A model generated the notes under the pieces. It was not told where the DNA came from and searched no databases. It worked only from the letters and a program-made list of their open reading frames with translations. Shown here piece after piece: positions 20,741 to 47,912 of a DNA stretch of 62,978 nt; position 1 is the first letter of the stretch, and every line of letters starts with the position of its first letter. This DNA comes from Pelistega sp. (GTDB lineage Bacteria > Pseudomonadota > Gammaproteobacteria > Burkholderiales > Burkholderiaceae_B): positions 2,471 through 65,448 of the forward strand of contig JAUNUI010000018.1 of assembly GCA_030538255.1 (NCBI GenBank), written 5' to 3'. Position numbers and translations under genes: made by a program.

Positions 20741-20756
20741 TTTGGAGTCTACAAAT

Positions 20757-20887
20757 TGAGATCTTTGCGAAATCCCCTATGAAGCCAATCAATTTCAACA
20801 TTTAATGCTAATTGACAGAAAATTGCTTGTAATTTCAATTAAATGCACTAGGAAAACACAAGATACCTTAATTTTGCAAAGATCACA
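20757..20887 (-). mobile_element. 131-bp MITE, copy 1
   Basis: Terminal inverted repeats TGAGATCTTTGCGAAAT and TTTTGCAAAGATCACA bound a 131-bp AT-rich element with no coding capacity, flanked by AAT on both sides (20754-20756, 20888-20890). It aligns end to end, in opposite orientation, with the 47782-47912 copy (shared CTATGAAGCCAAT and CCTTAATTTTGCAAAG). It lies between the umuC stop and the 3' end of the TetR gene. Confidence 0.85.
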
Positions 20888-20945
20888 AATTATTTACGTA
20901 ATGGTGTAAATTTAGCCGCATATGGTCATTTTTCTTGGTTTAGGT

Positions 20946-21515
20946 TTATACGAATTTCTTAAGGAATAAGGTCGTTGTTTCTACTCGTTCTTCGTGTGAT
21001 AAGGAGTTCGTTTGTGCGGCAACGATGAGTCCCTCGCCAAAGACAAAAAGTAATTTTGCTTGTTGCTGTGGATGTTGTAATCCTTCTTTGCGTAGATGCT
21101 CTGTAAGTGTTTCAAGAATAAATTTTTTATGTGTTTGTGCTTGGATGTGATGCGCGTGATCGGACTCTGAAAATTCAGCGCAGGTATTGATAAACATGCA
21201 ACCAGAGAAGGTACTGTCGTTGCACCAGTCAGTGATGAACTTTAGGTATTTATGTGCTGTACTATGCTTTAGGGTAGGTAAGTCACTCTTTAATGCGGTC
21301 ATAAGCCTATCGGTAAACCATGTATGCCTGTGCGCTAAAGTCGCACTGATTAGTGTATCTTTAGTGGCAAAGTGCTTATATAAGGTTTTCTTTGTAATGC
21401 CAGCATTACTCGCCAATAAATCAACTCCTGTCGCATGAAAACCATTCTTATAAAAAAGCGAACATGATGCACTCAGTATCGCCTCACTTTTCGATTCATT
21501 CTTATTGCCATGCAT
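20946..21515 (-). CDS. TetR/AcrR-family transcriptional repressor
   Basis: 189-residue repressor. The N-terminal helix-turn-helix is clear (A-I-L-S-A-S-C-S-L-F-Y-K-N-G-F, then G-I-T-K-K-T-L-Y-K-H-F, residues about 12-50), followed by an all-helical ligand domain with the C-terminal half of TetR_C-type members. Two 20-base palindromic operators lie directly upstream in the divergent gap, so it probably autoregulates and controls the rightward transcript that leads into the HPP gene. Ligand unknown. Confidence 0.9.
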   Translation of the reverse strand: MHGNKNESKSEAILSASCSLFYKNGFHATGVDLLASNAGITKKTLYKHFATKDTLISATLAHRHTWFTDRLMTALKSDLPTLKHSTAHKYLKFITDWCNDSTFSGCMFINTCAEFSESDHAHHIQAQTHKKFILETLTEHLRKEGLQHPQQQAKLLFVFGEGLIVAAQTNSLSHEERVETTTLFLKKFV

Positions 21516-21546
21516 AAGTGGACCCCTTCTTAAAAAAATACTTGTA

Positions 21547-21595
21547 AGTATACCGATTAGTATACTATACTATCTAGTATACCGTTCGGTATACT
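21547..21595. promoter_or_regulatory. Twin TetR operators
   Basis: AGTATACCGTTCGGTATACT (21576-21595) has perfect 9-base arms around a 2-base centre; AGTATACCGATTAGTATACT (21547-21566) is the same site with two arm mismatches. Centres are 29 bases apart. They sit just upstream of the TetR start and overlap the likely divergent promoters. Confidence 0.85.
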
Positions 21596-21674
21596 TTGTG
21601 AGTTATGTATTTTGAAAAATAGGGATTGGCTATGCTGAGAATCCTGAGTAAAGCGATAAAGGAGACCGTTAGAG

Positions 21675-21833
21675 ATGATTATTAGCTACATCTGTAATCG
21701 ATTTAAGCTTCCGCAGCAAGTCGCGCGGTTCATTATTCAAGCAAGGCCTTTTGCAAGCGTCTCGTTCGTAGCAAGTAGCGTAGTTAATTATTTAAGCATG
21801 GCCTTTTGCAAGCGTTTCGTTCGTAGCAAGTAG
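21675..21833 (+). CDS. Possible 52-residue ORF across the 55-bp repeats
   Basis: ATG 21675 follows AAAGGAG with 10-base spacing and opens a 52-codon frame that ends at TAG 21831 inside the third 55-bp repeat. The product would be basic and moderately hydrophobic with no recognised domain. It lies downstream of the TetR operators and upstream of the HPP gene. The repeat period is not a multiple of three, so the frame is read differently in each copy. It may be a leader peptide or not translated at all. Confidence 0.3.
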   Translation: MIISYICNRFKLPQQVARFIIQARPFASVSFVASSVVNYLSMAFCKRFVRSK

Positions 21834-21880
21834 CGCGGTTAATTATTTAAACAAGGCCTTTTGCAAGCGTCTTGTCGCGT
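21716..21880 (+). repeat. Three 55-bp tandem repeats upstream of the HPP gene
   Basis: Units begin exactly at 21716, 21771 and 21826 with GCAAGT-x-GCG and each contains AAGGCCTTTTGCAAGCGT (one unit with ATGG in place of AAGG). Units two and three are about 90 percent alike. They end 21 bases before the HPP start. Confidence 0.9.
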
Positions 21881-21901
21881 TTTTTAGAAATGGAAATTGA
21901 T

Positions 21902-22408
21902 ATGAAAATACTAGAAAATTGCTTAGGTGCTAAAGAAGCACGTCCCCCAAGGGTCTCAGTGAAGACTATCCTGTTTGCTTGGTTGGGAGGCTTATTGGCC
22001 ACAGCAGCCATTGCGGGCACAGGTGATGCCACACAATTGCCTTTGGTGTTAGGCTCATTCGGTGCAAGTTGTTTATTAGTTTTTGCCTATCCGAGTAGTC
22101 CTTTTGCGCAGCCCAGAAATGTCGTTGGCGGCCATGTTATCGCGACCGTGACTGGTTTAATCATCATGGGAATTTGTGGGGTGCATTGGTGGAGTATGGC
22201 CTTAGGGGTAGGTACGGCAATTGCCTTAATGTTGATATTCCGTGTGCCACACCCACCTGCAGGATCAAACCCACTTATCGTGATGTTGGGTGCGGCAGAT
22301 TGGTGGTATGTGGTGACACCAACATTATTGGGATCGATTATTCTGGTAGTAGTGGCCTTGATTTTTAATAACTGGGGGCAGGATAGACGTTATCCTACTT
22401 ATTGGTGA
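21902..22408 (+). CDS. HPP-family integral membrane protein
   Basis: Small membrane protein of the HPP family, named for the conserved H-P-P motif, here H-P-P-A-G-S-N-P near residue 125. Four hydrophobic segments are visible (about 20-40, 45-65, 75-105, 130-160). Some members transport nitrite in plastids and cyanobacteria, but the bacterial role is mostly unassigned. ATG 21902 has GGAA 8 bases upstream; the frame is open to TTG 21872 within the repeat array, a poorer start. Probably under control of the divergent TetR. Confidence 0.85.
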   Translation: MKILENCLGAKEARPPRVSVKTILFAWLGGLLATAAIAGTGDATQLPLVLGSFGASCLLVFAYPSSPFAQPRNVVGGHVIATVTGLIIMGICGVHWWSMALGVGTAIALMLIFRVPHPPAGSNPLIVMLGAADWWYVVTPTLLGSIILVVVALIFNNWGQDRRYPTYW

Positions 22409-22544
22409 TGTGTGTGTGCGCTAGTCAAGCTAAGGGCATTAACGGTGCAACGAAGGGAATGGTTTTCAATACCTCATAATACTGTCAAAAAAGTCTAAAT
22501 ACTAAAGTTTACTTAGTAGGTTTACTATAGGAGTCAAAAAGGCA

Positions 22545-22578
22545 CAAAAAAACCTGCTAACTCATTGAATTAACAGGT
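22545..22578 (-). terminator. Terminator of tRNA-Val
   Basis: On the minus strand ACCTGTTAA pairs with TTAGCAGGT (one G-U pair) across a 9-base loop and is followed by a run of seven T. It lies about 40 bases past the tRNA 3' end. Confidence 0.85.
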
Positions 22579-22616
22579 ATTTTAAGTAAACCTTGGCACA
22601 CTTAAGTAAGTATGCT

Positions 22617-22693
22617 TGGTAGGCGATACTGGAATCGAACCAGCGACCTCTACGATGTCAACGTAGCGCTCTAACCAGCTGAGCTAACCGCCT
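22617..22693 (-). tRNA. tRNA-Val (GAC)
   Basis: 77-base cloverleaf with encoded CCA. Acceptor AGGCGGT pairs with ATCGCCT (one G-U), D arm TAGCTCAGCTGGTTAGAGC, anticodon stem CTACG/CGTAG around loop TTGACAT (anticodon GAC, valine), T arm GCTGG-TTCGATT-CCAGT. It stands alone, with its own terminator downstream; the rest of the 22409-22974 gap shows only AT-rich sequence. Confidence 0.97.
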
Positions 22694-22974
22694 ACAAAGG
22701 ATAAGCTATGTATTCTATAGTGAATACAATGGCGTGTCAAGCACTTTAGCCTTATCAAGGCGCAAATTTTACTTTATTGGCTATTTTATCTTCATCAAGA
22801 GATTAATGTGCTTGTATTACATATGGATATATCTATAAAGCCAAAAAGATTTCGTTAAAATATGTACTTAGCTGAATAAAAAACTAGGGGATTCTCGTAG
22901 GGTATAGAATTTCCGTGCATTTTTAGATATGCGGGTTTAGTATATACAAAAATCATTAAAGTGGAGAGATATTT

Positions 22975-24063
22975 ATGAGTGGCGGTGTCTTATTTGAAGG
23001 TCTGATTCAAGCACCCATGGCAGGGGCCCAAAATAGCCGAATGGCGATGGAGGTATGTCGTGCAGGCGGACTAGGTTCAATTCCTGCAGCGATGCTTTCT
23101 CTTGAAGCGCTAGCGAAAGAAATTGAGACCATGCAAGAGGCAACATCAGTACCTTTTAATGTGAATTTCTTTGCGCATACGCTACTACCTCTAGAACCTA
23201 CTCGCCAACGCTTATGGCAAGAGATTCTGCATAAATATTTTCGTGAATATGATATTGATCCACAAAAGTTACCAGAGGCAGCACAGCGCCTACCTTTTTC
23301 CTCAGCGCATTTAGACATCTTGCAACAATATCGTCCTGCTGTAGTGAGTTTTCACTTTGGCTTGCCTGAAGAGCGTCTATTTCAAGCGGTAAAAGATACC
23401 GGTGCTAAGGTGATAGCGAGTGCCACAACGGTGGCAGAGGCCCACTATTTGGCTGAGCGCGGTGTGGATGCGGTGATTGCACAAGGGAGTGAGGCTGGCG
23501 GGCATCGGGGTATGTTTTTAAATGTTCTACCTGGGCATGAGGAAAATCTAGCGAATGTAGCCACACAGTTGGGGACATTTGCGCTTTTACCGCAAGTAGT
23601 CGAGGCGATGCAAAAGTACAATCTCCCCGTGATTGCCAGTGGTGGCTTGGCTGGAGGTACTAGCTTTAAAGCGGCTAAGGCATTGGGCGCTAGTGCTGTG
23701 CAAGTTGGAACGAGCTATTTATTATCGTCTGAAAGTTTAATTGGGCCACTGCATCGTGCGGCTTTACTTGCAGCCAAAGCGGATCCGAGTCAACATGTGA
23801 CGGCGCTTACCAATGTATTTACGGGTAAGCCAGCGCGTAGTTTAGCGACGCGTTTAATGCGTGAGTTGCGTTATATTCACCGCCAGGTCAATGAATTTCC
23901 TTACGCAAGCCAAGAAATCTCTGCTTTGCGCGCAGCAGCGGAACCTCAAGGCGTGGGTAGCTTCACGCCGATGTGGTGTGGCCAGAACTTAGGGGCTTGC
24001 GAAGAATTACCTGCTTATGAAATTACGCAAAAATTACTCGCGCAATGGGAAGCGTGTCGCTAA
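22975..24063 (+). CDS. Nitronate monooxygenase (2-nitropropane dioxygenase family)
   Basis: FMN-dependent TIM-barrel enzyme that oxidises nitronates such as propionate-3-nitronate, a detoxification role. Family features are the N-terminal Q-A-P-M-A-G, the N-V-N-F-F block near residue 60, the A-Q-G-S-E-A-G-G-H-R-G motif near 170, which contains the proposed catalytic His, and the phosphate-binding A-S-G-G-L-A-G-G and G-A-S-A-V-Q-V-G-T motifs near 222 and 240. The 362-residue length is normal. It has its own leader and is transcribed away from the tRNA gene. Confidence 0.92.
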   Translation: MSGGVLFEGLIQAPMAGAQNSRMAMEVCRAGGLGSIPAAMLSLEALAKEIETMQEATSVPFNVNFFAHTLLPLEPTRQRLWQEILHKYFREYDIDPQKLPEAAQRLPFSSAHLDILQQYRPAVVSFHFGLPEERLFQAVKDTGAKVIASATTVAEAHYLAERGVDAVIAQGSEAGGHRGMFLNVLPGHEENLANVATQLGTFALLPQVVEAMQKYNLPVIASGGLAGGTSFKAAKALGASAVQVGTSYLLSSESLIGPLHRAALLAAKADPSQHVTALTNVFTGKPARSLATRLMRELRYIHRQVNEFPYASQEISALRAAAEPQGVGSFTPMWCGQNLGACEELPAYEITQKLLAQWEACR

Positions 24064-24154
24064 ATATAGAACGGATGAATGCAACTCAGTGCTGCGTCAG
24101 TCATCTTGTATGATTCATGATATATTTACGTTTTTCTTCAGCTAAAGGGAACCC

Positions 24155-24814
24155 ATGCAAACATGGCATGAGGCTATTGGTGAGCAACGCCAACAGGCTT
24201 ATTTTCAAGACTTACTCGCACGAGTCCAAGAGCAAAGAGCGCAAGGGGTAACGATTTACCCACCTCAAGAAGAAGTGTTTAATGCCTTTAAATTGACGCC
24301 TTTTGAGCAGGTGAAAGTCGTTGTTCTGGGGCAAGATCCTTATCATGGACCTGAGCAAGCTCATGGTTTGGCTTTTTCCGTGAAGCCACACGTCGCTATT
24401 CCACCGTCTTTACGCAATATTTATAAAGAGCTGGCTGAGGATATCCCAGGGTTTGTGATTCCTAAACATGGTGACTTACGGTATTGGGCGCAACAAGGAG
24501 TGCTGTTACTAAATACGGTCTTAACGGTGCAGGCGGGAAAAGCGCATTCACATGCCAGTTGGGGGTGGGAAACATTTACAGATACGGTGGTTGCTCAGTT
24601 GAATGCGCAGAGAGAGCAGCTTGTTTTTCTGCTATGGGGTAGTCATGCTCAGAAAAAAGGGCAAATGATTGATCGCCAGAAGCATCTTGTTCTGAGTAGT
24701 GCGCATCCATCGCCTTTATCGGCGCATCGTGGTTTCTTAGGTAATCGTCATTTTTCTCAGACGAATGGCTATTTGCAAGCTCAGGGTTTGGCGCCTATTG
24801 ATTGGCAGGTGTAG
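24155..24814 (+). CDS. ung: Uracil-DNA glycosylase (family 1)
   Basis: Removes uracil from DNA. The catalytic water-activating loop G-Q-D-P-Y-H-G near residue 63 and the leucine intercalation loop H-P-S-P-L-S-A near 187 are both intact; the 219-residue length is typical. It starts at ATG 24155 after AAAGGGAACC and is followed directly by a strong terminator. Confidence 0.96.
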
Positions 24815-24830
24815 AGTGTGTATAAATAAG

Positions 24831-24864
24831 AAAAAGGCGTAGCTGTTATGGGTACGCCTTTTTT
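24831..24864. terminator. Terminator after ung
   Basis: AAAAAGGCGTA pairs with TACGCCTTTTTT across an 11-base loop and ends in a T run. The A-rich 5' flank lets it act in both directions, and it lies between the convergent ung and DUF937 genes. Confidence 0.9.
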
Positions 24865-24916
24865 ATGCTGCCGCCAGGACAAGGCAAGAAGCCCAAAAAT
24901 CCTGACTTGTGTGATG

Positions 24917-25873
24917 TTAAGACTGAGTAGCCGGGGCTGTGCTTGACTCAGCAGCAGGAGCAGACCCAGTAGTTGGAGCAGGTTCAGTAGCAGGAGTAGT
25001 CTCAGTGGTAGGGGCAGGTTCAGTGGCAGGTTTTGCAGAGTCTGTATTTGTACTTGGTGCGGCCGGGGCCTGACTCACTGGATCAGACTTTTGCTCTTCT
25101 GTTGTACAGCTTTTAACGGCTAGCAAGGCAGCTAATACGACCGCAATCGGGATTAACCATTTCCAGGGAGCGCTACTTTTAGTCGGCTCTGCAGTACTTT
25201 GCTTGGCTTCAGTTAAGACTTTTACTTCGGGGCTTGAGGCTAGGCTATCGCCACTGTCGCCAGCGACGGAAGCTCCTGCAATAAATAAAGCAGGGGCTTT
25301 TTCGAGGGCAAGAAATAAATCGTCGAATGAGCCCTTAATGCCTAAAGCATCCAGAGCGCCTTGATCAATAAAAGGTGCAATATTTTTCGCTTGATCACCA
25401 ATATAACCCGTCATGCCTGTTAGTGTTAGGCCATTATTATCAATTTTATCTTTAAAGAATGAAAAAATTAGCGGCACGATTAAGCCTAGGGTCGTGCGCA
25501 CGGTATCGGCAGGCATATTAGTTGTGTTCGCCAAGTAGTTTTCTGTGCCTTGTGCTTTAGAGACAAACAAAGCTGGAAGCACTTGTTTACCTTGCTCAAC
25601 GAGTTGCGTGACTTGTGCGGCTGTTGTCGTGCTTTGTTCGCTTAGGATAGACGAGGGCTCAATAGCAAATGAGGTGTTTTTAAGTAAGCCAAATAGGGTG
25701 CTTGCACTATCTCTGCGCAGTGACTTTCTTGCCATCCGCGCTACTGTAATGCTTAATGCCTTGTCAAATAACTGGGCGCTACCTTCTTGTGGTAAGCCTA
25801 GATTCTTAGTAAGTTGCTGAAGAACGATATCTCGTATGGGGCTTTGGAATAATTGTTCTAAATTAAAACGCAT
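24917..25873 (-). CDS. DUF937-domain membrane protein with Pro/Thr-rich tail
   Basis: 318 residues from ATG 25873 (a GTG at 25885 is a possible earlier start). Residues about 1-200 are a DUF937/YidB-like helical domain (N-L-G-L-P at the front, then a G-L-x-x-P-L block in the middle). A single membrane segment follows (I-P-I-A-V-V-L-A-A-L-L-A-V near 235), then a low-complexity C-terminal tail made of T-E-P-A-P-T-T-E-type repeats. Related Burkholderiales proteins often continue into an OmpA peptidoglycan-binding domain; that is absent here. The role is unknown; the tail probably lies in the periplasm. Confidence 0.75.
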   Translation of the reverse strand: MRFNLEQLFQSPIRDIVLQQLTKNLGLPQEGSAQLFDKALSITVARMARKSLRRDSASTLFGLLKNTSFAIEPSSILSEQSTTTAAQVTQLVEQGKQVLPALFVSKAQGTENYLANTTNMPADTVRTTLGLIVPLIFSFFKDKIDNNGLTLTGMTGYIGDQAKNIAPFIDQGALDALGIKGSFDDLFLALEKAPALFIAGASVAGDSGDSLASSPEVKVLTEAKQSTAEPTKSSAPWKWLIPIAVVLAALLAVKSCTTEEQKSDPVSQAPAAPSTNTDSAKPATEPAPTTETTPATEPAPTTGSAPAAESSTAPATQS

Positions 25874-25885
25874 AAAAAATCTCAC

Positions 25886-26325
25886 TAAGAAGTATAAGTT
25901 TAGATGATAAGTGCAAGCTGAAGCGCTGTATAGTTAATAGATGTAATTGTTGCGAGCGCACTAAAGAATATTAGCATTATTACATGTAACTAGGGTGAGA
26001 TTAGCACGAGAAAGCGACACGATAATGACGAGCAGTCGAAGGTTATCGACGCGAAGGACTAATGGACATATAGAAGTGGCTTAACTTCCTAAGGAATTAA
26101 TACTTCTCGGCAAATGATTTGTTTTCCTAAAGGTGGCTATATGAAAAGAGTTAAAGTTACGGAGCAAAAAAGCTGTGAATTGCTGTTCTCTAAGTGATGC
26201 TATTAGTAGTAGTCTTACTTGTCGAATAAATTGATATCCTTTATTGTGATTATGCGTGGTAGTGCTTTGGTGAGATTAGCCCTTGTTGGGCGAAGTCAAC
26301 ACTCTTTAATTTTTGATTTAAAACA
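25886..26325. other. 440-base gap between DUF937 and the peptide importer
   Basis: AT-rich intergenic sequence holding the divergent promoters. A short frame at 26141-26197 (18 residues) has AAAGGTGG in front of its ATG and could be a leader peptide, but nothing else supports it. A GAAGT/ACTTC inverted repeat lies around 26070-26105. No repeat, RNA or operator was recognised. Confidence 0.4.
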
Positions 26326-26370
26326 ATGAATAGCACGTCTTTCACTATTGTTTTTATAAGGATAGTACTT

Positions 26371-27921
26371 ATGTCAGAACGTCGATTTTACAAAAAAGCG
26401 TTAACGCTAATGCTTGCTTCAACACTTGGGTTTGCTTTATCAATGCCATATGCCCAAGCGGCTACGCCGAAAGACACTTTAGTTATCTCTAAGGCCTCAG
26501 ATCCGCAGACTTTAGATCCAGCGATTACGATGGATAACAACGACTGGAGCGTTACATACCCAAGTTATCAACACTTAGTCAAATACACTAAAGGCACTAC
26601 GGAGGTTGCAGGTGAACTCGCAGAGAGTTGGACGACTTCAGCGGATAACCTAGTTTGGACTTTTAAATTGCATGGTGGCAATAAGTTTGCTGATGGTTCT
26701 GAAGTGAACGCTGAGGCAGTTAAATATACTTTCGACCGTTTAATGCGGATGAAGCAGGGGCCTTCTGAACCATTTCCGACAGGTATGAAAGTAGCTGTGA
26801 AAGGACCGCTTGAGGTGGAGTTTACGCTAGATACGCCGTTTGCACCATTCCTCAATATTTTGGCGAATAATGGTGCGGGTATTATCAATCCTAAAGTAGA
26901 GCAAGAAGCTGGTGGCGCTGACCAGTATTTGGCCGCGAATACGGCTGGCTCAGGTGCGTATCAATTAGTCAAATGGGAAAAAGGACAGCAAATTTTACTT
27001 GAACGTAATCCTCATTTTGCAGGAACCAAACCGAGTCTCGATAAAGTGGTTTTCAAAATTGTTCCTGATGCTTCAGCACAGCGCTTACAGCTACAAAATG
27101 GTGATCTCGACATCGTCTCTAAACTACCAGTTGACCAAATTACTGCCTTGCAATCTAAACCAGGTGTGGTGTTCGATAAAGTGCCATCACTTTTAGTAAC
27201 TTACCTGTATTTAAACAATAAAAAAGGCCCCTTAAGCAATGTTGATGCCCGTAAAGGCATCTCAGATGCAATTGATTACCAAGGCATTCTAGAGGGTGTG
27301 ATTAATAATCAAGGCAAGCTTTTAAAAGGCCCAATCCCCGATGGTATGTGGGCCTATGATGCAAGCAACCCTGATTTTACCCAGAACCCTGATGGTGCTA
27401 AAGAAAGCTTTGCTAAAGCCAATCTAGGCAAGCAATCGCTTACGATGCTGTACTCTAATCGTGATCCTAATTGGGAGCCGATTGCCTTAACGGTACAAGC
27501 TAATCTAGCGACTTATGGCATCAATGTTAAGTTAGAGAAATTGGCGAATGCCACCATGCGCGATCGCTTAGGTACAGGTGATTTTGATATTGCGATTGGT
27601 AACTGGAGTCCTGACTTTGCTGATCCTTTCATGTTTATGAATTATTGGTTTGATTCCAGCAAAGCAGGTCTACCAGGAAATCGTTCGTTCTATGAAAATG
27701 CCGAAGTAGATAAGTTGGTACGTAAAGCGGCTGAAATTAGTGAACCAGAAGAGCGTACCAAGCTTTATCAAGAAGCTCAAAAGCAGGTGCTGAAAGATTA
27801 TGCTTATGTCTACTTATTCCAAAAGAGTGAGCAAATTGGTTTACGTGATAATGTTAAAGGCTATGCCTATAACCCTATGTTAGATGATGTATATAATGTC
27901 GTGGACATCACAAAAGAATAG
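26371..27921 (+). CDS. Peptide ABC importer, substrate-binding protein (family 5)
   Basis: Periplasmic binding protein of the DppA/OppA/NikA type, 516 residues from ATG 26371 (the frame is open to 26326 but the signal sequence and an AGGAT site support 26371). The signal peptide ends near residue 34 (A-Q-A-A-T). Family features are the D-P-Q-T-L-D-P segment, L-A-E-S-W near 80 and K-F-A-D-G-S-E-V-N-A near 110. It is the first gene of a complete B-C-D-F importer; the exact ligand (dipeptide, oligopeptide, glutathione) cannot be told. A strong stem-loop follows its stop, as is usual for highly expressed binding proteins. Confidence 0.9.
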   Translation: MSERRFYKKALTLMLASTLGFALSMPYAQAATPKDTLVISKASDPQTLDPAITMDNNDWSVTYPSYQHLVKYTKGTTEVAGELAESWTTSADNLVWTFKLHGGNKFADGSEVNAEAVKYTFDRLMRMKQGPSEPFPTGMKVAVKGPLEVEFTLDTPFAPFLNILANNGAGIINPKVEQEAGGADQYLAANTAGSGAYQLVKWEKGQQILLERNPHFAGTKPSLDKVVFKIVPDASAQRLQLQNGDLDIVSKLPVDQITALQSKPGVVFDKVPSLLVTYLYLNNKKGPLSNVDARKGISDAIDYQGILEGVINNQGKLLKGPIPDGMWAYDASNPDFTQNPDGAKESFAKANLGKQSLTMLYSNRDPNWEPIALTVQANLATYGINVKLEKLANATMRDRLGTGDFDIAIGNWSPDFADPFMFMNYWFDSSKAGLPGNRSFYENAEVDKLVRKAAEISEPEERTKLYQEAQKQVLKDYAYVYLFQKSEQIGLRDNVKGYAYNPMLDDVYNVVDITKE

Positions 27922-27964
27922 TTATCATGATGCTTTTGTGCTTTATTGACTAATAAAAAGTAGA

Positions 27965-28004
27965 CCGGGATAGTGCTTCACCTTAGGTGGGGCGAATATC
28001 CCGG
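27965..28004 (+). terminator. Intercistronic stem-loop after the binding protein
   Basis: CCGGGATA (27965-27972) pairs with TATCCCGG (27997-28004), with an inner CACC/GGTG pair, and no T run. Position between binding protein and permease suggests partial attenuation or protection of the 5' message, raising binding-protein levels over permease. Confidence 0.75.
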
Positions 28005-28017
28005 CTCTCATATACCT

Positions 28018-31892: not shown

Positions 31893-32145
31893 CTATCCGA
31901 TGCTATTGAATAGGCTACTTAAGACGTGGAGGATAATGCATTATTATCTGAAAATGAGACTATCTATCCGATGTTATTGATTAGCTTATTGCAGACTAAT
32001 GTTGTGCTGTTGATAAGGCTTTTCAAACAAATAAGTAGTCTTTTACTAGGACAATTCTAGCTATTGTTAGAACTGCGAATTGTTCCCAAGGCCGAGCTAT
32101 AGCAAACTACTCCCAATTCTTTTAATCAATTAACGGAGAGTAGCT

Positions 32146-32415: not shown

Positions 32416-32416
32416 T

Positions 32417-36649: not shown

Positions 36650-36752
36650 GTCATGCAGTAGGGGCTTATTTCATACTGTATAGATTATCAACTATTTATA
36701 TATAAACCACTTAAAATTTTATGTTTAAAAATTAATTTCTAGGAATCTCATC

Positions 36753-38294: not shown

Positions 38295-38442
38295 GCAATA
38301 TTTGCAATGAACAGGTGTGAGTAATTTATTACTTACCAGTATTGCTTAAAAATATGCCAAGCCGCGTATTTTATCTGAAGCAATATGAACAGTGTGATTG
38401 TTTACGCCATCAATATTAATTAATGAGATAAAGAGGATAAAC

Positions 38443-40404: not shown

Positions 40405-40410
40405 GTGCTT

Positions 40411-40500
40411 GTCATTATTGAAATTAGAGGTAAAACGACGCACGTGTCCAAGCAATATATGGCGCGATGTTGTTGTCATTCTAAAAATTGAGGTATAACG
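40411..40500 (+). repeat. Duplicated ribosome-binding region before tadB
   Basis: GTCATT-x-GAAATTAGAGGTAAAACG (40411 onward) and GTCATT-x-AAAATTGAGGTATAACG (40475 onward) lie 64 bases apart. The second copy supplies the GAGG site of tadB; the first is followed by no long frame. Confidence 0.6.
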
Positions 40501-41346
40501 ATGGTATGGATCGCCTTATTGTTTGCGGTTATTAGTTTAACGGTATGTTTTTATTTTGCACTGCAGGGTTTTAATAAGGCTTTACGTCTCTATGAAGAGC
40601 AATTCAAAGGGATGGCACAACGCAATTTAAAAGAAGTTTTCTTGTTTATCGACCCGGTTCAAGTCTGGACAGCGGCGTTCTTGCTTTGCGTGTTTTTTAT
40701 TGCGGTGACTTGGCTATTGAGTCAATCATGGTATCTTTCACTGGCCATAGGTTTGCTTTTCCTCACCTTACCTGCTTATGCCATTAAGCGCTTTAAACAA
40801 TACCGCTTACAGCTTTTTGATAAACAATTACCTGATATGCTCTTGGCCTTATCGAGTGCTTTGCGTGCAGGTTCTGGGGTACAGAATGCTTTACGTCTAT
40901 TTGCCGAAGACTCGCCAGCTCCCTTATCTCAAGAGCTTGGCCTATTGGTGCGTGAACAACGCTTGGGGTTAAGTTTTGAACAGGCCTTAGACAATCTTTG
41001 TCAGCGCATGCCGTCCGAATCTACGCAGTTAATGGTTTCATCTTTAAAAATAGCCCAACAAACAGGTGGTAATTTGGCGAATGCACTTGAGAGGATTGCT
41101 GCGACCTTGCGTTCAAGCTTGCAAATTCATGGAAGAATCAAAGCCTTAACGAGTCAAGGCAAGATGCAAGCATGGGTGATGAGTCTATTACCCGTTCTCT
41201 TGCTTTTTGTCTTGAATTATTTGGATCCAGAAGCCATGCAATATTTATGGAATAGCTGGGTAGGTTGGTCTGTCTTGATGTTGATACTATTTCTTGAAGG
41301 TTTAGGTATGTGGATGATACGTAAGATTGTGGCTATCGATGTGTAA
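40501..41346 (+). CDS. tadB: Tad inner-membrane platform protein TadB
   Basis: 281 residues with N-terminal membrane helices and a T2SSF (GspF) domain (about 115-240) marked by L-P-D-M-L-L-A-L-S-S-A-L-R-A-G and Q-Q-T-G-G-N-L-A-N-A-L, then two C-terminal helices. With TadC it forms the platform coupled to TadA. It is followed 29 bases later by tadC. Confidence 0.93.
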   Translation: MVWIALLFAVISLTVCFYFALQGFNKALRLYEEQFKGMAQRNLKEVFLFIDPVQVWTAAFLLCVFFIAVTWLLSQSWYLSLAIGLLFLTLPAYAIKRFKQYRLQLFDKQLPDMLLALSSALRAGSGVQNALRLFAEDSPAPLSQELGLLVREQRLGLSFEQALDNLCQRMPSESTQLMVSSLKIAQQTGGNLANALERIAATLRSSLQIHGRIKALTSQGKMQAWVMSLLPVLLLFVLNYLDPEAMQYLWNSWVGWSVLMLILFLEGLGMWMIRKIVAIDV

Positions 41347-41375
41347 ATAGATGCCGTGTTAAGAGAGTACCTTAT

Positions 41376-42254
41376 ATGTTATTTATTTTAAGTTTATTAG
41401 CAGCAGGAGCATGTCTGTGCATTGTTATTTATGTGCTCTTAAGCCCTAGTTTGGACAATGTAGATAGCCAAGATAAGCAAGCGTTCAGCTCGCCTAGTTT
41501 ACGTATGTTGCTTCCTTGGGTGAATAGCCTGAGTACCTTGGTGAGTCCATTTCTCACTTGGAAGTATCAACTCAAGCTGAAGCAAGAGATTTTAGAAGCA
41601 GGTTTAACGGGTCAATTAAACCCACGACATATTGCGGGCTTTCAAAGCTTGACGGCCATACTTGCATGTTTAGTTGCGCTTTACCTATTTAAGTGGGTAC
41701 TCGACATGACATGGTTAAGCAGCTCTTTACTGTTGCTAGTCTTTGCGGGGATTGGCCTACATTGGCCATTAGCTGTTTTACGCAACAAGGCTCGTGTCCG
41801 AAAACGTAGTATTTTAAAAGCGTTTCCATTCGTTTTGGATATGACAACACTTTGTGTTGAATCAGGCATGAATTTGCATGGCGCCCTTATTCAGACCGCG
41901 CAAACCATACCTGATAATCCTTTACGACAGGAGTTACAGTTTGCTTTGTCAGAAATGCGTACAGGACTTGCACGGGCAGATGCCTTACGAGAAATGGCTA
42001 ATCGTATTGCTTTAGCGGAAATTAAGCAATGGGTCGCGTCAATCAATCAGACCGAAAGTCTCGGCATGGGTTTAGGGCCCATGCTACGGGCGCAGGCCGA
42101 TCAACGTCGCAGTGAGCGCTTTTTGCGAGCAGAGAAACTGGCCTTAGAAGCTCCGGTCAAGATGCTTCTGCCTTTAGTGGTGTGTATTTTCCCCTGTACA
42201 TTTATTGTATTAGCCTTTCCGATTGGGATGAAATTACTCAATTCAGGCTTATAG
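41376..42254 (+). CDS. tadC: Tad inner-membrane platform protein TadC
   Basis: 292 residues: N-terminal helices, then a T2SSF domain (about 150-270) with F-P-F-V-L-D-M-T-T-L-C-V-E-S-G-M-N and Q-T-E-S-L-G-M-G-L-G-P-M-L, as in TadC, and a final helix. It pairs with TadB. The DUF192 gene begins 7 bases after its stop. Confidence 0.93.
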   Translation: MLFILSLLAAGACLCIVIYVLLSPSLDNVDSQDKQAFSSPSLRMLLPWVNSLSTLVSPFLTWKYQLKLKQEILEAGLTGQLNPRHIAGFQSLTAILACLVALYLFKWVLDMTWLSSSLLLLVFAGIGLHWPLAVLRNKARVRKRSILKAFPFVLDMTTLCVESGMNLHGALIQTAQTIPDNPLRQELQFALSEMRTGLARADALREMANRIALAEIKQWVASINQTESLGMGLGPMLRAQADQRRSERFLRAEKLALEAPVKMLLPLVVCIFPCTFIVLAFPIGMKLLNSGL

Positions 42255-42261
42255 ACCCGAT

Positions 42262-42588
42262 ATGACATTAGATAAGCTTGTGATCAAATCCTACCCCCGT
42301 TTTGAGCAACGATTTATGGGTTTAATGGGGCGTAAATCATTGCCTTTTGACGAAGGTATTGTATTGTTTCCTTGTCAAAGCGTGCATAGCTTTTTTATGC
42401 GCTTTTCAATCTGTGTTTTGCATTGTGATCATGAAGGGCGCCTACTCAAGTATGTGCCTTGTCTTAGGCCATGGTCATGGAGTATATGTCACAAGGCTTA
42501 TTATGTATTTGAGTTTAATGCAGGGCGTTTTCGTAGTGCTGAACATGCGCGGCAATGGTTGGATAGCTACTTTAATCATGATCATTGA
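42262..42588 (+). CDS. DUF192-family small protein
   Basis: 108-residue protein of the DUF192 family (compact beta fold), recognisable by R-F-x-G-L-M-G-R-K-S-L, F-P-C-Q-S-V-H-S-F-F-M-R-F and the final F-E-F-N-A-G. Unlike most members it has no signal peptide. DUF192 genes are frequent at the end of tad loci, but their task there is unknown. No terminator is obvious in the 151 bases to the next gene. Confidence 0.8.
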   Translation: MTLDKLVIKSYPRFEQRFMGLMGRKSLPFDEGIVLFPCQSVHSFFMRFSICVLHCDHEGRLLKYVPCLRPWSWSICHKAYYVFEFNAGRFRSAEHARQWLDSYFNHDH

Positions 42589-42683
42589 TTTAATCCATAA
42601 CTAAATTGCTCTCTAATCAAACCTTGTATTAAAAGAAGCTTGATTTTATTGAATAAAAAATTGTTTTTTTGTTGTTTAAGCGG

Positions 42684-42692
42684 TGCTATACT
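42684..42692 (+). promoter_or_regulatory. Extended -10 promoter of acyl-CoA dehydrogenase
   Basis: TGCTATACT matches an extended -10 element (TGn plus TATACT) 48 bases before the start codon, preceded by a T-rich stretch instead of a clear -35 box. Confidence 0.45.
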
Positions 42693-42739
42693 AATTTATT
42701 CAGCTAAGCATTTTGTATAACTTTTTGGAAGAGACAATT

Positions 42740-44527
42740 ATGGCTTTTAAAGCAGCATTAGAGGATTTTCATTTCAATCTAAATGAATTGGGTTTACTTA
42801 AGCAAGTCCAAAGTCTACCAGGTTTTGAAGAAATTACTGACGATTTAGTTCCTGCTGTACTTGAGGAGAATGCGCGTTTTGTTGAAGAGCAAATTGCGCC
42901 ACTGAATGTGATTGGAGATCGTCAGCACTCTGTCTGGAATAATGGTGTAGTTAAAACGCCAGATGGCTTTAAAGAAGCTTTTAAGTCATATACGGAGAGT
43001 GGTTGGCAAGCATTGCAACATGACCCTAAGTTTGGTGGTCAAGGCTTTCCCAAATTGCTTGCAGCGGTGACGTCTGAAAATATTAATGCAGCAAATTTAT
43101 CGTTTGCACTTTGTCCATTATTAACAGATGGATGTATCGAAGCGATTATGCAAGCAGGTAGTGAAGAACAACAACAGAAATTCATCCCTCCTATGCTTGA
43201 AGGGCGTTGGACGGGGACCATGAACTTGACCGAACCACAAGCTGGCTCAGACTTGGCCCTGGTAAATTCCAAAGCAGTTAAACAAGACGATGGTACATAT
43301 CGTATTTCAGGCCAGAAGATTTTCATCACCTATGGTGAACACGATATGTCAGAGAATATTGTTCATCTCGTGCTTGCTCGTACGCCTGATGCGCCAGCAG
43401 GAGTTAAAGGCATCTCTTTATTTGTCGTGCCTAAGTTCTTGGTTAACGAGGATGGCAGCCTAGGAGCACGTAACGATGTATGGTGTGCTTCAGTTGAAGA
43501 AAAACTCGGGATTAATGCAAGCCCTACCGCGGTTCTCTTATTTGGCGATAATAAGGGTGAAGTAGGTGAGGGTGCGATCGGCTACCTCATTGGTACTGAG
43601 AATGCAGGTTTATCATATATGTTCGTGATGATGAACGAAGCTCGCTTTAATGTGGGTGTGCAAGGTATTGCTGTATCAGAGCGTGCCTATCAGCATGCCT
43701 TAGCCTATTCGCAAGAGCGCTTACAGAGTAATGCAATTGAGGGTTCATCAGGTCCTGTGCCGATTTTCAATCACCCTGATGTACAACGTATGTTAAGCAC
43801 GATGCAGGGCCTTATCCAAGGAGCGCGTTCGACTGCATTATTTGCAGCATGTTCACATGACATTTCTACTCATCATCCTGATGCTGGTGAGCGTGCTAAG
43901 CATAAAGCTATGCAAGAATACTTGGTACCTATTGTAAAAGCCTTCTCCACAGAGATGTCGCTTGAGGTGACATCTCTTGGTGTGCAAGTGCATGGCGGTA
44001 TGGGCTTTATTGAGGAAACTGGTGCCGCACAATATTATCGTGATGCGCGTATTTTACCGATTTATGAAGGTACAACAGCAATTCAAGCGAATGATTTTAT
44101 TGGCCGTAAAACTTTACGTGATGGTGGTGCTGTGGCCAAGGGCTTTATTTATGCGATGCGTGAAACACAAGCAGAGCTTCTGAAACAGGGTGATAATGCA
44201 GAGCATCAGTTTTTAGCGAAACAATTTACAGTTGCAGTGGATGCCTATGAGCGCGCTTTAGATACAACGTTGAGACTTGCTGCAGCAGGTAAAATGCGCG
44301 AAGTATTTAGTGCGAGTGTGCCATTCTTGATGCTAGCAGGGTATGTGCATGGTGGTTGGCACCTTGTTAGATCTGCTTTGGCTTGTCAAGGTAAGAGCGG
44401 CGATTTTTATGAGCAGAAAGTCAATACTGCACTAATGTATGCGTCTCAACTCTTGCCACGCGCAAGTGCCTTAGCGCAGACTGTTGAAGCAAGCGAGTTT
44501 ACGGGCTCAATTATGATTAAAGCGTAA
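42740..44527 (+). CDS. Acyl-CoA dehydrogenase with extended C-terminal domain
   Basis: 595-residue FAD enzyme from ATG 42740. It belongs to the long acyl-CoA dehydrogenase group (DmdC/FadE-like with an extra C-terminal domain). Visible are M-N-L-T-E-P-Q-A-G-S-D-L near 160, the K-I-F-I-T-Y-G-E-H-D block near 198, and R-I-L-P-I-Y-E-G-T-T-A-I-Q near 440, which contains the catalytic Glu. It passes electrons to ETF, encoded in this window at 60005-61685. The exact acyl substrate is not evident; related enzymes include 3-methylmercaptopropionyl-CoA dehydrogenase. Confidence 0.93.
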   Translation: MAFKAALEDFHFNLNELGLLKQVQSLPGFEEITDDLVPAVLEENARFVEEQIAPLNVIGDRQHSVWNNGVVKTPDGFKEAFKSYTESGWQALQHDPKFGGQGFPKLLAAVTSENINAANLSFALCPLLTDGCIEAIMQAGSEEQQQKFIPPMLEGRWTGTMNLTEPQAGSDLALVNSKAVKQDDGTYRISGQKIFITYGEHDMSENIVHLVLARTPDAPAGVKGISLFVVPKFLVNEDGSLGARNDVWCASVEEKLGINASPTAVLLFGDNKGEVGEGAIGYLIGTENAGLSYMFVMMNEARFNVGVQGIAVSERAYQHALAYSQERLQSNAIEGSSGPVPIFNHPDVQRMLSTMQGLIQGARSTALFAACSHDISTHHPDAGERAKHKAMQEYLVPIVKAFSTEMSLEVTSLGVQVHGGMGFIEETGAAQYYRDARILPIYEGTTAIQANDFIGRKTLRDGGAVAKGFIYAMRETQAELLKQGDNAEHQFLAKQFTVAVDAYERALDTTLRLAAAGKMREVFSASVPFLMLAGYVHGGWHLVRSALACQGKSGDFYEQKVNTALMYASQLLPRASALAQTVEASEFTGSIMIKA

Positions 44528-44625
44528 TGAAATCGTAAGAATAGAGTAATAGAAGCGTATCAGTAATCAAATAGAGTTAAGGTACTCCCCCTGAAAGCTT
44601 GGGTATAAGGTGCGTTCTGATAGGA

Positions 44626-44661
44626 AGGTATGAACTGCAAAAATGCTTGTGGTTCATACCT
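44626..44661 (+). terminator. Hairpin after acyl-CoA dehydrogenase
   Basis: AGGTATGAAC (44626-44635) pairs perfectly with GTTCATACCT (44652-44661) across a 16-base loop and is followed by TTAATTTAT. The remaining gap to 44872 holds 13-bp degenerate repeats (44711-44791) and a 9-bp stem CTGAAGGGC/GCCCTTCAG (44822-44849) just past the minus-strand gene, which could end that transcript. Confidence 0.7.
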
Positions 44662-44710
44662 TAATTTATACTGTAATCTATATTCGACATTAAAATTACA
44701 TCGTCAGGTG

Positions 44711-44791
44711 GGTGGCTCTGAATAATGGTTCTGAATAGTAGCACTGAATGGTAGCTCTAATGGTGGCGCTTAATGGTAGCACTTACTATCC
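44711..44791. repeat. Degenerate 13-bp repeats
   Basis: Five to six consecutive units of the type GCACTGAATGGTA (with GCTCTAATGGTG and GCGCTTAATGGTA variants) fill this part of the gap between convergent genes. Confidence 0.6.
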
Positions 44792-44872
44792 AGAGCTTTA
44801 TTCTGGGCGTTCATGTTGGTGCTGAAGGGCGATTTATATTGCCCTTCAGATGCTGGTACTTAATGTCGATAC

Positions 44873-45457
44873 TTAATAGCCAGCCATGGCTCCTAAAATC
44901 ATTACGGTTGGCGCAATAATAATCCAGACAGCAGTGGCCAAACCATCTTTCAAAAGATTGGGTTGCACGATTTGCTGCATTGGTTTAATCGATACGGTTC
45001 TTGTAGCCTTCGCTGTCTGAATAAATTGAGTATCCGCTAATAAGTCCTGTTGTGGGCTTGTGTTCATATGAGTTTGTGAACGTAAATGCTCAGACTGTAA
45101 ATGCTCAGGCTGTAAATGCCCAGTCTTTGAGTGTTCAAGCTGAGGGAGATCAGCATGACTTAACTGAAGCCTATCTAAACGAGAGTTAGCTTTCTGTACG
45201 AGTTTGAACAGTGTATTAAAGAGAGGGCCGCATGCTTTCCGTAGGTCTTGGGCAATGCTGATTGAACCCTGAACACAACGTTTGATATCACGGCGTAAAC
45301 CCCTTGAACCGTTGCGGCGTGTACGGATAGGGCGGATAGACCAGTTTTCTAACTGCGCAATACTGAGATCAAAAGGGCGTGCATGAGAAACAATAGCTTG
45401 TTTATTCAGCTGTTGAATTTGATACTGCGCTAAACTTGTGTTAATGTACTTATTCAT
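44873..45457 (-). CDS. Unrecognised protein with C-terminal hydrophobic segment
   Basis: 194 residues from ATG 45457, which has AAGGAT 8 bases upstream; the frame is open to 45490. The N-terminal half is basic (R-R-N-G-S-R-G-L-R-R-D-I-K-R) and contains the motif S-H-A-R-P-F-D-L-S-I-A-Q-L-E-N-W seen in no family I know. The middle has a five-residue Glu-His-Leu repeat (about 118-137) encoded by 15-bp DNA repeats. The last 22 residues are a membrane-like segment (A-V-W-I-I-I-A-P-T-V-M-I-L-G). It might be tail-anchored. Function unknown. Confidence 0.55.
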   Translation of the reverse strand: MNKYINTSLAQYQIQQLNKQAIVSHARPFDLSIAQLENWSIRPIRTRRNGSRGLRRDIKRCVQGSISIAQDLRKACGPLFNTLFKLVQKANSRLDRLQLSHADLPQLEHSKTGHLQPEHLQSEHLRSQTHMNTSPQQDLLADTQFIQTAKATRTVSIKPMQQIVQPNLLKDGLATAVWIIIAPTVMILGAMAGY

Positions 45458-45609
45458 GTTCGTATCCTTGTTGATGCTATTACTGGCCATGAATTTGAGT
45501 CATAGCCGACAGTAAAATTTAGCTATAAACTTAGCAATAAAGTTAGCAGTTAAACTAGAGAGTAAGACTTGTCTAAAGTGATCTTTCGCTAAATATCAAT
45601 CTGATTAAG

Positions 45610-45791
45610 CTTGGTCTACTTTGTCCCCCGAAGGGGCATCTACTTGAGTGAGTCAATCGGCTATATGGCAAATCTCCTTACTGATTTGCACCTATATGAA
45701 CCACTACAAGTAGATGAGTATCAGGACCCTAACCTGATGTGTCGTACTATGCTTACGACAGTTACTACTGTATATTTATACAGTAGTTTTT
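45610..45791 (+). ncRNA. Candidate structured RNA
   Basis: Stem-loops follow one another: CCCC-CGAA-GGGG (45625-45636); a 14-bp stem with one bulge, CATCTACTTGAGTG (45637-45650) with CACT-A-CAAGTAGATG (45702-45716), enclosing GCAAATC/GATTTGC (45668-45689); ATCAGG/CCTGAT (45720-45738); TGTCGTA/TACGACA (45740-45760); and TACTGTATA/TATACAGTA (45766-45785) followed by GTTTTT. A weak promoter (TTGTCT at 45569) precedes it. No known RNA family was recognised. It lies in the 595-base gap between a minus-strand gene and rplS. Confidence 0.4.
45766..45785. promoter_or_regulatory. LexA-like palindrome or terminator stem
   Basis: TACTGTATATTTATACAGTA is a 20-base palindrome matching the CTGT-N8-ACAG LexA pattern and close to the box at 18731. 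No SOS gene starts near it. It is followed by GTTTTTGC, so it could instead be the terminator stem of the candidate RNA at 45610-45791. Confidence 0.5.
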
Positions 45792-45877
45792 GCAAGCTAT
45801 TTCTCATGCTTGTTGTTTTTTATTCTCCTGACTTTAAGTCCATCTCATAAAACTCACTGAGTTTCTTGCTTAAGTGC

Positions 45878-45907
45878 TTGTCAATTAAGAAGAAATTACG
45901 CTATAAT
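45878..45907 (+). promoter_or_regulatory. Strong sigma-70 promoter of rplS
   Basis: TTGTCA (45878-45883) and TATAAT (45902-45907) are separated by 18 bases and point at rplS, leaving a leader of about 140 bases. Confidence 0.8.
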
Positions 45908-46052
45908 CGAAATCTTAAGTTTTTCCATCCTCTGGCAACGAATTTACTTAATGGTTAAGTCGATTCATATAGGGTAGCTGGCTTTAAAGAGCTTGTAATC
46001 ACTCGGTTATATTTGATAAGCAAGTTGCGTATGATGGTGTATAGGAAATGAA

Positions 46053-46424
46053 ATGAACTTAATTCAAACTCTTGAACAAGAAGAAATTGCTCGCTTAACT
46101 GAAGGTAAGCAAGCCGTTGAATTTGCTCCAGGCGATACCGTTATTGTGAGCGTTAACGTAGTTGAAGGTAACCGTAAGCGTGCACAGGCCTATGAAGGTG
46201 TTGTTATCGCTAAGCGTAACCGTGGCTTAAACTCTGCATTTACCGTGCGTAAAATCTCTTCAGGTGAAGCTGTTGAGCGTACATTCCAATTGTACTCTCC
46301 ACAAATTGCTTCTATCGAAGTTAAACGTCGTGGTGCGGTTCGTCGCGCGAAACTTTACTACCTACGCAACCTATCTGGTAAAGCTGCACGTATTAAAGAA
46401 AAATTGGTTCGTAAAGCTGTTTAA
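46053..46424 (+). CDS. rplS: 50S ribosomal protein L19
   Basis: 123-residue ribosomal protein L19, conserved from N terminus ([10 protein letters not shown]) through F-A-P-G-D-T-V, G-N-R-K-R-x-Q-A-Y-E-G-V and the S-G-E-A-V-E-R-T-F block. L19 sits at the 30S/50S interface. It is normally the last gene of rpsP-rimM-trmD-rplS; none of those three is upstream here, and a dedicated promoter at 45878 and a perfect terminator at 46497 make it monocistronic. Confidence 0.97.
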
Positions 46425-46496
46425 TTTTAAATGGTTTAGCGACCGCTAGAGCGTAAAGTATGAACTAATAAGCAAGTGCTTTACATTCTAGTACTT

Positions 46497-46525
46497 AGCA
46501 CCTATAGCGATATAGGTGCTTTTTT
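46497..46525 (+). terminator. rplS terminator
   Basis: AGCACCTATA and TATAGGTGCT form a perfect 10-bp stem around a GCGA loop, followed by a run of T. Confidence 0.95.
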
Positions 46526-46546
46526 GTGCGTATTTATCTCCCATGC

Positions 46547-46582
46547 TGAGACCTTTGTGAAAGGTATTTTGCAAAGGCCTCA
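46547..46582. mobile_element. 36-bp MITE relic (two ends only)
   Basis: TGAGACCTTTGTGAAAGG and TATTTTGCAAAGGCCTCA are the two ends of the 131-bp MITE family brought together with the interior deleted. It lies between the rplS terminator and the 3' end of the antitoxin gene and can fold as a hairpin there. Confidence 0.65.
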
Positions 46583-46603
46583 GCTTATTTTTAAGAGGCC
46601 TAA

Positions 46604-46945
46604 TCAGGCCAGTTGCTCAATAGAAATATTAAGTGCTTCAGCAACTCGCTCAATGGTGGCTCTGCGTGGTTTCGCATGCCGTGCCTCTATATTGGCATAT
46701 GTCGGTTGGCGAACTTTTAGTCGTTGCGCCATTTCAATTTGAGTAATCCCAAGATATTCACGCCAAGCACGAATAATGCTCCAATCATTATTCACTTGCA
46801 GTGAAATCACTTCGTGTGGAATCGTGCCATCCACGGGGATTCGAGTCTGCTTCTTATTGCAAAGCACGAGATAATCATCATAAGGGAGGATGACAAACGC
46901 TGGCTTGCCGTCTGTCTTTAAAATTGTATGTTGCTTAAGGTTCAT
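46604..46945 (-). CDS. Phd/XRE hybrid antitoxin
   Basis: 113 residues. The N terminus (T-D-G-K-P-A-F-V-I-L-P-Y-D-D-Y) is the Phd/RelB-like antitoxin segment, and residues 55-113 are a Cro/C1-type helix-turn-helix (G-I-T-Q-I-E-M-A-Q-R-L-K-V-R-Q-P-T-Y-A-N-I-E) that should bind the operon promoter. This combination is the usual partner of RelE/StbE-like toxins. It follows the toxin gene on the same strand with GAGG before its ATG. Confidence 0.88.
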   Translation of the reverse strand: MNLKQHTILKTDGKPAFVILPYDDYLVLCNKKQTRIPVDGTIPHEVISLQVNNDWSIIRAWREYLGITQIEMAQRLKVRQPTYANIEARHAKPRRATIERVAEALNISIEQLA

Positions 46946-46972
46946 AAACTATACCTCTAATAAGTTTCATCA

Positions 46973-47215
46973 TCACGTTTTTTTAATTTCTTGAATATCA
47001 ATGATACGCACCACAGTATCAACATCAAAAAGAACCATATAGTTCCCCACCCTTAATCGATAGCTATACTGATGATTGATTAATGTCTTTACCTGTTTTG
47101 CAGTAGCTAAATCCTCTAAAGTAAAAATAGCGGCAACAATCTTCTTCTGATGAAATTTATCTATTTTTCGTAATTGCTTGACTGCTGTATTCGTCCAATT
47201 AATGTCAAAGTTCAT
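46973..47215 (-). CDS. RelE/ParE-family toxin, C terminus frameshifted
   Basis: 80 residues as read. It matches RelE/StbE toxins: A-V-K-Q-L-R-K-I-D near the start, L-I-N-H-Q-Y-S-Y-R-L-R-V-G-N-Y-M-V-L-F-D-V-D and I-x-I-x-E-I-K-K. Family members end E-x-K-K-R-D-E-x-T-Y. Here the frame reaches a run of seven A (minus strand; T at 46978-46984) and stops two codons later. With six A the next codons read R-D-D-E-T-Y and stop at 46957, 11 bases before the antitoxin ATG, exactly the expected end. So it is either a mutated, phase-variable or slippage-read toxin, or a sequencing error in the run. Confidence 0.85.
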   Translation of the reverse strand: MNFDINWTNTAVKQLRKIDKFHQKKIVAAIFTLEDLATAKQVKTLINHQYSYRLRVGNYMVLFDVDTVVRIIDIQEIKKT

Positions 47216-47385
47216 AAATTATATATAGCCTTATTATAGTTTTTACTATAAAACATCTCAAGTATTATTTAGCCCGTTAAGAGGATTAAATAATCGTCCA
47301 TAAGATTCAAGTCTATTCATATGATTTGAAACTGGCTAGAGCGTAAAACTACGCTAACACTGACATAATTATTTATTCAATGCAG

Positions 47386-47516
47386 TGAGGCCATTGCAAA
47401 ACCATGAAAAAGATGTCAAGGACCATAAATTTCACCTGCATTTGCAATCAATTAAATGTTAATTGCCTCAAATGGTGCGAATAATTGATAGCTAAACGAA
47501 TTCCGCAAAGGTCTCA
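47386..47516 (+). mobile_element. 131-bp MITE, copy 3 (diverged)
   Basis: TGAGGCCATTGCAAAA at the left and TTCCGCAAAGGTCTCA at the right bound exactly 131 bp. The interior is diverged from the other two copies. No target-site duplication was seen. It abuts the transposase relic on its right. Confidence 0.7.
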
Positions 47517-47730
47517 TCGTGTCTTATCATGCTCAAGTCCCCCTTAGGCCGTATTATTTGGCCAATGGCATAGTCTTTCAGACCCACAGTTAGTGGCAAA
47601 GTCTATTAACGCACGCATAGACTCGGTTCAGAAACAAGCCTTAAATTTGGCTAAAATTGTTGTGTTTTACAATGGTTTTTGCTTGCTTTCTCTTTCCTTA
47701 AAATGCGACGAGAAGCTGAATTCAGCATAA
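47517..47730 (+). pseudogene. Decayed IS5-family (IS1106-like) transposase
   Basis: From 47548 the frame reads A-V-L-F-G-Q-W-H-S-L-S-D-P-Q-L then A-R-I-D, matching the N-terminal domain of IS1106-type IS5 transposases (A-V-L-L-G-Q-W-H-S-L-S-D-P-E-L). Just upstream, in another frame, L-I-M-L-K fits the preceding residues, so an indel separates them. After the conserved block the frame continues with a segment resembling the C-terminal end (A-L-N-L-A-K) and stops at 47730. The catalytic DDE core is missing. The rest of 47216-47940 holds MITEs and AT-rich sequence. Confidence 0.7.
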
Positions 47731-47781
47731 ACTTTTAGTATCATCAAGGTATCGCTCAGTTTTATCGAGTTTTATATAATT

Positions 47782-47912
47782 TGAGACCTTTGCAAAATTA
47801 AGGAATGTTCTTTTTTTCTTTAATATTTACTTGAATTTGTAAGTTGTTTACTGTTAATTAGCGGTAAATATTGGCGGTAATTGGCTTCATAGAGCATTTT
47901 GCAAAGGTCTCA
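47782..47912 (+). mobile_element. 131-bp MITE, copy 2
   Basis: TGAGACCTTTGCAAAATTA at the left and ATTTTGCAAAGGTCTCA at the right are near-perfect inverted ends of a 131-bp AT-rich element flanked by ATT on both sides (47779-47781, 47913-47915). It lies immediately before the ribosome-binding site of the Nudix gene, so it may carry or displace that promoter. Confidence 0.88.

Follow-up and report, generated by a model that had tools for sequence, protein, structure and literature searches.

A stretch of 62,978 nucleotides from Pelistega sp. (assembly GCA_030538255.1, contig JAUNUI010000018.1, positions 2,471 to 65,448; hereafter the window) carries three short, gene-less elements and a fourth, two-ended locus that, together with copies on other contigs, very probably represent a small family of miniature inverted-repeat transposable elements (MITEs) with ends of the ISNme1 type (IS5 family), which would have been mobilised in trans by a transposase that the genome later lost. 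The first-pass annotation of the window had described these loci as MITEs with IS5-type ends; this observation was confirmed, with the corrections given below, and its interpretation was supported. The copies are homologous and have common ends, three of them are flanked by target duplications, additional copies lie on other contigs, and no intact ISNme1-type transposase was found in the assembly. From the shared ends and the 5-base footprint, we considered these pieces most likely to be non-autonomous hitch-hikers of a known insertion sequence (IS) type, and the matching ends and duplications point to an ISNme1-type transposase as the enzyme that moved them.

The elements, their kinship, and their target duplications

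The three stretches originally delimited at 131 bp (20757-20887, 47386-47516, and 47782-47912) and the two-ended locus at 46547-46582 (the 36-bp locus) are all bounded by TGAGACCTTTGC-type inverted ends. With at most two mismatches, the 12-mer end occurred 14 times in the window compared with a mean of 5.8 in shuffled sequences, none of which (0/100) reached 14, and eight of these matches are the ends of the four loci. Although the three elements proved to be homologous and located where first reported, their length required correction: the true ends are GAGACC...GGTCTC, so that copies 1-3 each measure 129 bp, and the T and A at the outer margins of the 131-mers are target sequence. Copy 1 occupies 20758..20886 on the minus strand; copy 2, the most diverged of the window copies, occupies 47387..47515 on the plus strand; and copy 3 occupies 47783..47911, also on the plus strand, upstream of a NUDIX gene. 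The terminal inverted repeats of copy 3 are perfect over 16 bp. The 36-bp locus retains, as first described, only its two ends, which stand nearly back to back at 46548..46581 and fold into a hairpin, and it is probably an internally deleted copy.

A BLAST search of the Pelistega genome (G000) with copy 3 returned copy 1 (75%, E 7.7e-19) and a 127-bp copy on contig 42 (72%, E 1.0e-10; G000:C42:80108-80234). A sequence-only model built from four copies (copies 1-3 and the contig-42 copy) recovered all four and, in addition, a fifth copy of 127 bp on contig 35 (G000:C35:10858-10984; E 5.5e-9), which is a match independent of training because it was absent from the model, as well as a partial match on contig 11, a fragment covering model positions 1-75 (E 7.7e-6). 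The genome-wide search thus yielded five full-length copies and one fragment at different sites, a multi-copy state typical of MITEs although the number is small for one; since just 111 of the 704 first-look candidates were scored in this model search, further, more divergent copies may be present. Each of the ten pairs that the five full-length copies form outscored 300 of 300 shuffles of their interiors with the ends kept, at identities of 56-74%; copy 1, copy 3, and the contig-42 copy cluster closely (71-74%), and copy 2 and the contig-35 copy are more distant. Within the window, the best-aligned pair was copy 1 with copy 3, which face opposite ways (96/129, 74%, z 10.8). The opposite orientation initially reported for copies 1 and 2 held, but their alignment is weak (75/130, 58%, z 3.7; equalled by none of 300 interior shuffles). 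Terminal inverted repeats are present in the family, in degenerate form in the contig-35 copy, and at 127-129 bp its members are too short for a transposase gene. No copies appeared in relatives: BLAST at E <= 1e-4 found none in 60 relatives, six of them of the same genus, and the best model match in 30 other genomes (E 0.0087 on a single-genome scale) is at about chance level for 30. A plasmid search with copies 3 and 1 and a viral-contig search with the first 21 bases of copy 3 gave no match.

Exact 5-bp duplications flank three of the five full-length copies: AAATT at copy 1 (20753..20757, matched exactly at 20887..20891), AATTT at copy 3 (47778..47782 and 47912..47916), and GTTCT/GTTCT at the contig-42 copy. 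When lengths from 2 to 11 were tested on these three copies, 5 was the sole matching length in each; the 3-bp duplications first reported (AAT and ATT) were rejected, as they are contained within the 5-bp ones. The flanks of the contig-35 copy (AATTT/AATCT) are alike in four of five bases. The chance rate of identical 5-bp flanks at a spacing of 129, taken over the window, was 60 in 62829 positions, or 21 in 10639 when the flanks were AT-rich. On this basis, P is ~3e-8 for a duplication in three of four elements (copies 1-3 and the copy on contig 42) and ~8e-8 for three of five when the 36-bp locus is included, both values being optimistic because the element boundary was chosen after looking. 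Independent support for the 5-bp boundary comes from the equal duplication length in full-length elements.

The genes on either side of copy 1 are convergent: an umuC-like gene, which ends at 20740, and a TetR-type gene on the minus strand (20946-21515). The stop of the umuC-like gene is separated from the copy 1 target duplication by just 12 bp (20741-20752).

Full-length elements with the same ends

The ends of ISNme1, an IS5-family element, are printed as GAGACCTTTGCAAAA and TTTTGCAAAGGTCTC in Table 2 of PMC4596501, and those of copy 3 are identical to them in 15 of 15 bases at each end. The exact 16-base end TGAGACCTTTGCAAAA was found in only three of 398 genomes of the phylum and in two of 150 relatives, the Pelistega genome being included in both counts. 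In the other two of the three genomes (G133 and G256), the end is adjoined by the motif GCCGTCTGAA, which we take to be the DNA uptake sequence of Neisseria; because of this adjacency, both were regarded as Neisseria or its kin. PF01609 transposases were present in 15 of 21 genomes of the genus of G133, and 30 loci were fetched from the many matches there, several per genome in some cases. Among them, 14 elements of 1198-1251 bp, not all independent, have both 15-bp ends perfect and equal to those of copy 3. The protein of one full-length element belongs to the IS5-family transposases (NF033581 transpos_IS5_4, 262 bits against a cut-off of 140) and also matches PF01609 and PF05598, so that the attribution of the ends to the IS5 family was borne out by complete elements.

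Exact 5-bp duplications flank eight of these 14 elements, and no other length from 2 to 11 was seen. The closest transposase in the bacterial family of Pelistega was found in G028 (60-76% identity in the matched pieces), where the element (L114, G028:C5, 961-2197) spans 1237 bp, has the ends GAGACCTTTGCAA and GAGACTTTTGCA, and is flanked by the duplication AGACT. It was counted with the others despite two and one mismatches in its ends, giving 5-bp duplications in nine of 15 full-length elements and other lengths from 2 to 11 in none (0/15). Left out of the 15 were the pairs with mismatched ends (L057, L063, L064, and L067) and the second pairings in L065, L071, L072, L077, and L083; that in L071 (1311 bp) has two perfect ends and no duplication. 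Because both the G028 element and those in the genus of G133 show it, a 5-bp duplication accompanies ISNme1-type elements in both bacterial families. Twelve listed duplications, of MITEs and full-length elements together, end in a pyrimidine in all cases (12/12) and begin with a purine in ten (10/12).

Two further observations concern these loci. In G028, four other contigs end inside or beside matches to the L114 element. In L065, from the genus taken as Neisseria, a 96-bp stretch (929-1024) carries both ISNme1-type ends, one of them mismatched, between flanks GGTCT/GGCCT without a duplication, and is possibly another MITE.

With a cut-off of E <= 0.001, 40 of the 200 genomes in the search contained relatives of the ISNme1-type transposase. 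A PF01609 search of eight genomes, which did not include G006, gave no match in the Pelistega genome; the domain was present in the congeners G004 and G005, without ISNme1-type ends nearby. An autonomous parent, which the definition of a MITE does not require, was not found in the Pelistega genome, and the ISNme1-type parent is therefore putative.

A putative transposase relic and the rplS-NUDIX site

The first-pass annotation had proposed a transposase relic between two of the copies, and a putative relic, of the ISNme1 type, indeed occupies the spacer that separates copy 2 from copy 3. It reads AVLFGQWHSLSDPQLVAKSINARID (47548..47622, plus strand) and corresponds to about residues 73-96 of the transposase frames of the full-length elements. 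In tblastn, it matched most of the ISNme1-type transposases tried with 68% identity over 25 columns (E ~7e-5 in the window), and its DNA matched the G028 element with 77.5% identity over 40 bp in blastn. Its score of 34.3 bits was approached by none of 500 dinucleotide shuffles of the 265-bp spacer (maximum 22.7 bits; 0/500 as good). In the 171 bp that precede copy 2, the only match, to transposase residues 119-136, is weak (E 0.028) and out of order, so that copy 2 does not simply interrupt the relic.

In the window, rplS and the NUDIX gene are ~1.5 kb apart, and between them lie the 36-bp locus, a helix-turn-helix (HTH)/ParE-type gene pair, copy 2, the relic, and copy 3. The HTH_3 gene and the ParE-type gene (PF05016, 34.8 bits, cut-off 23) stand side by side on the minus strand (46604-46945 and 46973-47215) and resemble a type II toxin-antitoxin pair. 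The NUDIX gene was found in five of seven genomes of the genus, including that of Pelistega sp. In the congener G006, 83 bp separate rplS (89% identical) from the start of the NUDIX gene that follows it, the ATG being our choice; in G004, rplS (92%) lies just before NUDIX, and the two protein matches are 112 bp apart compared with 116 bp in G006. No ISNme1-type end was present in the rplS-NUDIX gap of either genome. The stretch examined in G001 is without rplS, and that in G002 stops just before the NUDIX gene. Judged from this comparison, the rplS-NUDIX gap has taken up insertions in the species of the window, and in two congeners the locus is indeed without the elements. The umuC-like genes of the genus were also tried as an empty-site test for copy 1; two were found at 48-50% identity with no such ends nearby, and they were rejected as too distant.

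Alternative explanations and relation to known families

We proposed that a full-length ISNme1-type element would have supplied its transposase in trans, that the enzyme would bind the terminal repeats of the short elements, and that the short element would be joined to a target cut with a 5-bp stagger, leaving a 5-bp duplication. The full-length element would later have been lost from the genome, with a short relic left in the spacer before copy 3. The copies themselves would have drifted to 56-74% identity. The family is presumably immobile in its own genome at present.

Several results weigh against this proposal. At E <= 0.001, no ISNme1-type transposase was matched in the Pelistega genome or in six other genomes of the genus, and this whole-genome search did not report the relic, which is short and in whose 60-residue frame Pfam and NCBIfam find no transposase family. 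From copy 3, BLAST missed copy 2 in its own genome even at E <= 10, so that the kinship of copy 2 rests on the shuffle tests, and neither copy 2 (flanks GCAGT/ATCGT) nor the 36-bp locus has a target duplication. Such duplications are likewise missing from six of the 15 full-length elements, whose similarity to the MITEs ends after ~16-17 bp. Only five full-length copies were found, compared with the 10-20 quoted in PMC4596501 as typical for bacterial MITEs. Moreover, the gaps in G006 and G004 are also without the toxin-antitoxin-like pair, and hence are not clean empty sites.

It is conceivable that the copies derive from several full-length ISNme1-type elements, each of which lost its middle independently, rather than from one short element that was copied; the resemblance of the 36-bp locus to an internally deleted copy, and the presence of an IS relic in the same gap, would fit such a history. 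However, the five copies share their length and an interior that sets every pair above its shuffles, and separate deletions would not yield one common interior; in addition, when four full-length elements were compared with the region by blastn, only the ends and the relic matched. We therefore regard independent loss as very improbable. Scarcely more probable is that the elements persist because they serve some intergenic function, such as ending or starting transcription, with their spread being secondary. Copy 1, the contig-35 copy, and the 36-bp locus do lie between convergent reading frames, and the AT-rich repeat (ATR) elements of Neisseria meningitidis are given as almost ten times commoner than chance in convergent gaps (PMC5383966); the same source reads such gaps as the sites where insertion does least harm, an explanation that may apply equally here. 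Copy 3 (z -5.7) and the 36-bp locus (z -4.2) fold better than their shuffles, as is inherent to inverted ends, but the folding of the remaining copies is modest (z -2.5, -1.6, and -2.0) and the interiors have drifted far, and simple scans for sigma-70 promoters and intrinsic terminators gave no hit within copies 1-3 or within the 36-bp locus.

By the features tested, the elements are MITEs of the ISNme1 (IS5-family) type and form a new family of a well-known kind. The full-length ISNme1-type elements (~1.2 kb) match copy 3 at the 15-bp ends and likewise show 5-bp duplications, but differ in encoding a transposase. The closest parallel is ATR, which is likewise short, non-coding, and intergenic, and for which ISNme1 was proposed as the parent on the basis of its ends (PMC4596501). 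ATR is described as 181 bp long with 13-bp repeats; two strains carry 12 and 13 copies, nearly all of which lie outside genes, with an excess where neighbouring genes converge (PMC5383966). Its length sets it apart from the 127-129 bp of the present family, a distinction made without comparing interiors, and it occurs in another bacterial family. BrickBuilt, a MITE of Porphyromonas gingivalis, comes from a host that we take to belong to a different phylum from that of the window. Its best copy has the ends GAGACCTTTGCA, and its parent was proposed among IS5-family elements; it differs in its 23-nt tandem repeats and in its flanking repeats, CT, GAAA, and AAAAA (PMC4596501). Correia elements of Neisseria are MITEs of 100-155 bp that are possibly moved by an IS5-family (IS1106) transposase, but their definition by 26-bp repeats and a TA duplication (PMC3898611) does not describe the elements here, which show 5-bp duplications and, in copy 3, repeats of 16 bp.

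Of the seven species of the genus, one yielded copies; there the parent is gone except for the relic, and in our searches perfect ends were otherwise encountered only in genomes taken as Neisseria. Because of this distribution, we tentatively raise the idea, which we hold to be doubtful, that this is an orphan MITE family that has outlived its transposase and whose copies may have moved whenever an ISNme1-type element passed through by horizontal transfer. Literature searches on Pelistega and insertion sequences, and on MITEs in Alcaligenaceae, presumably the bacterial family concerned, returned no report of these elements. In this analysis Pelistega was reached through a single protein of the window, which is 68 and 71% identical to proteins of two Pelistega species. 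Although the wider biology is already known, the present results add a MITE family to a bacterial family for which the search on Alcaligenaceae MITEs found nothing, and the 5-bp footprint common to the MITEs and the full-length elements provides a simple means of discriminating true insertions from chance matches.

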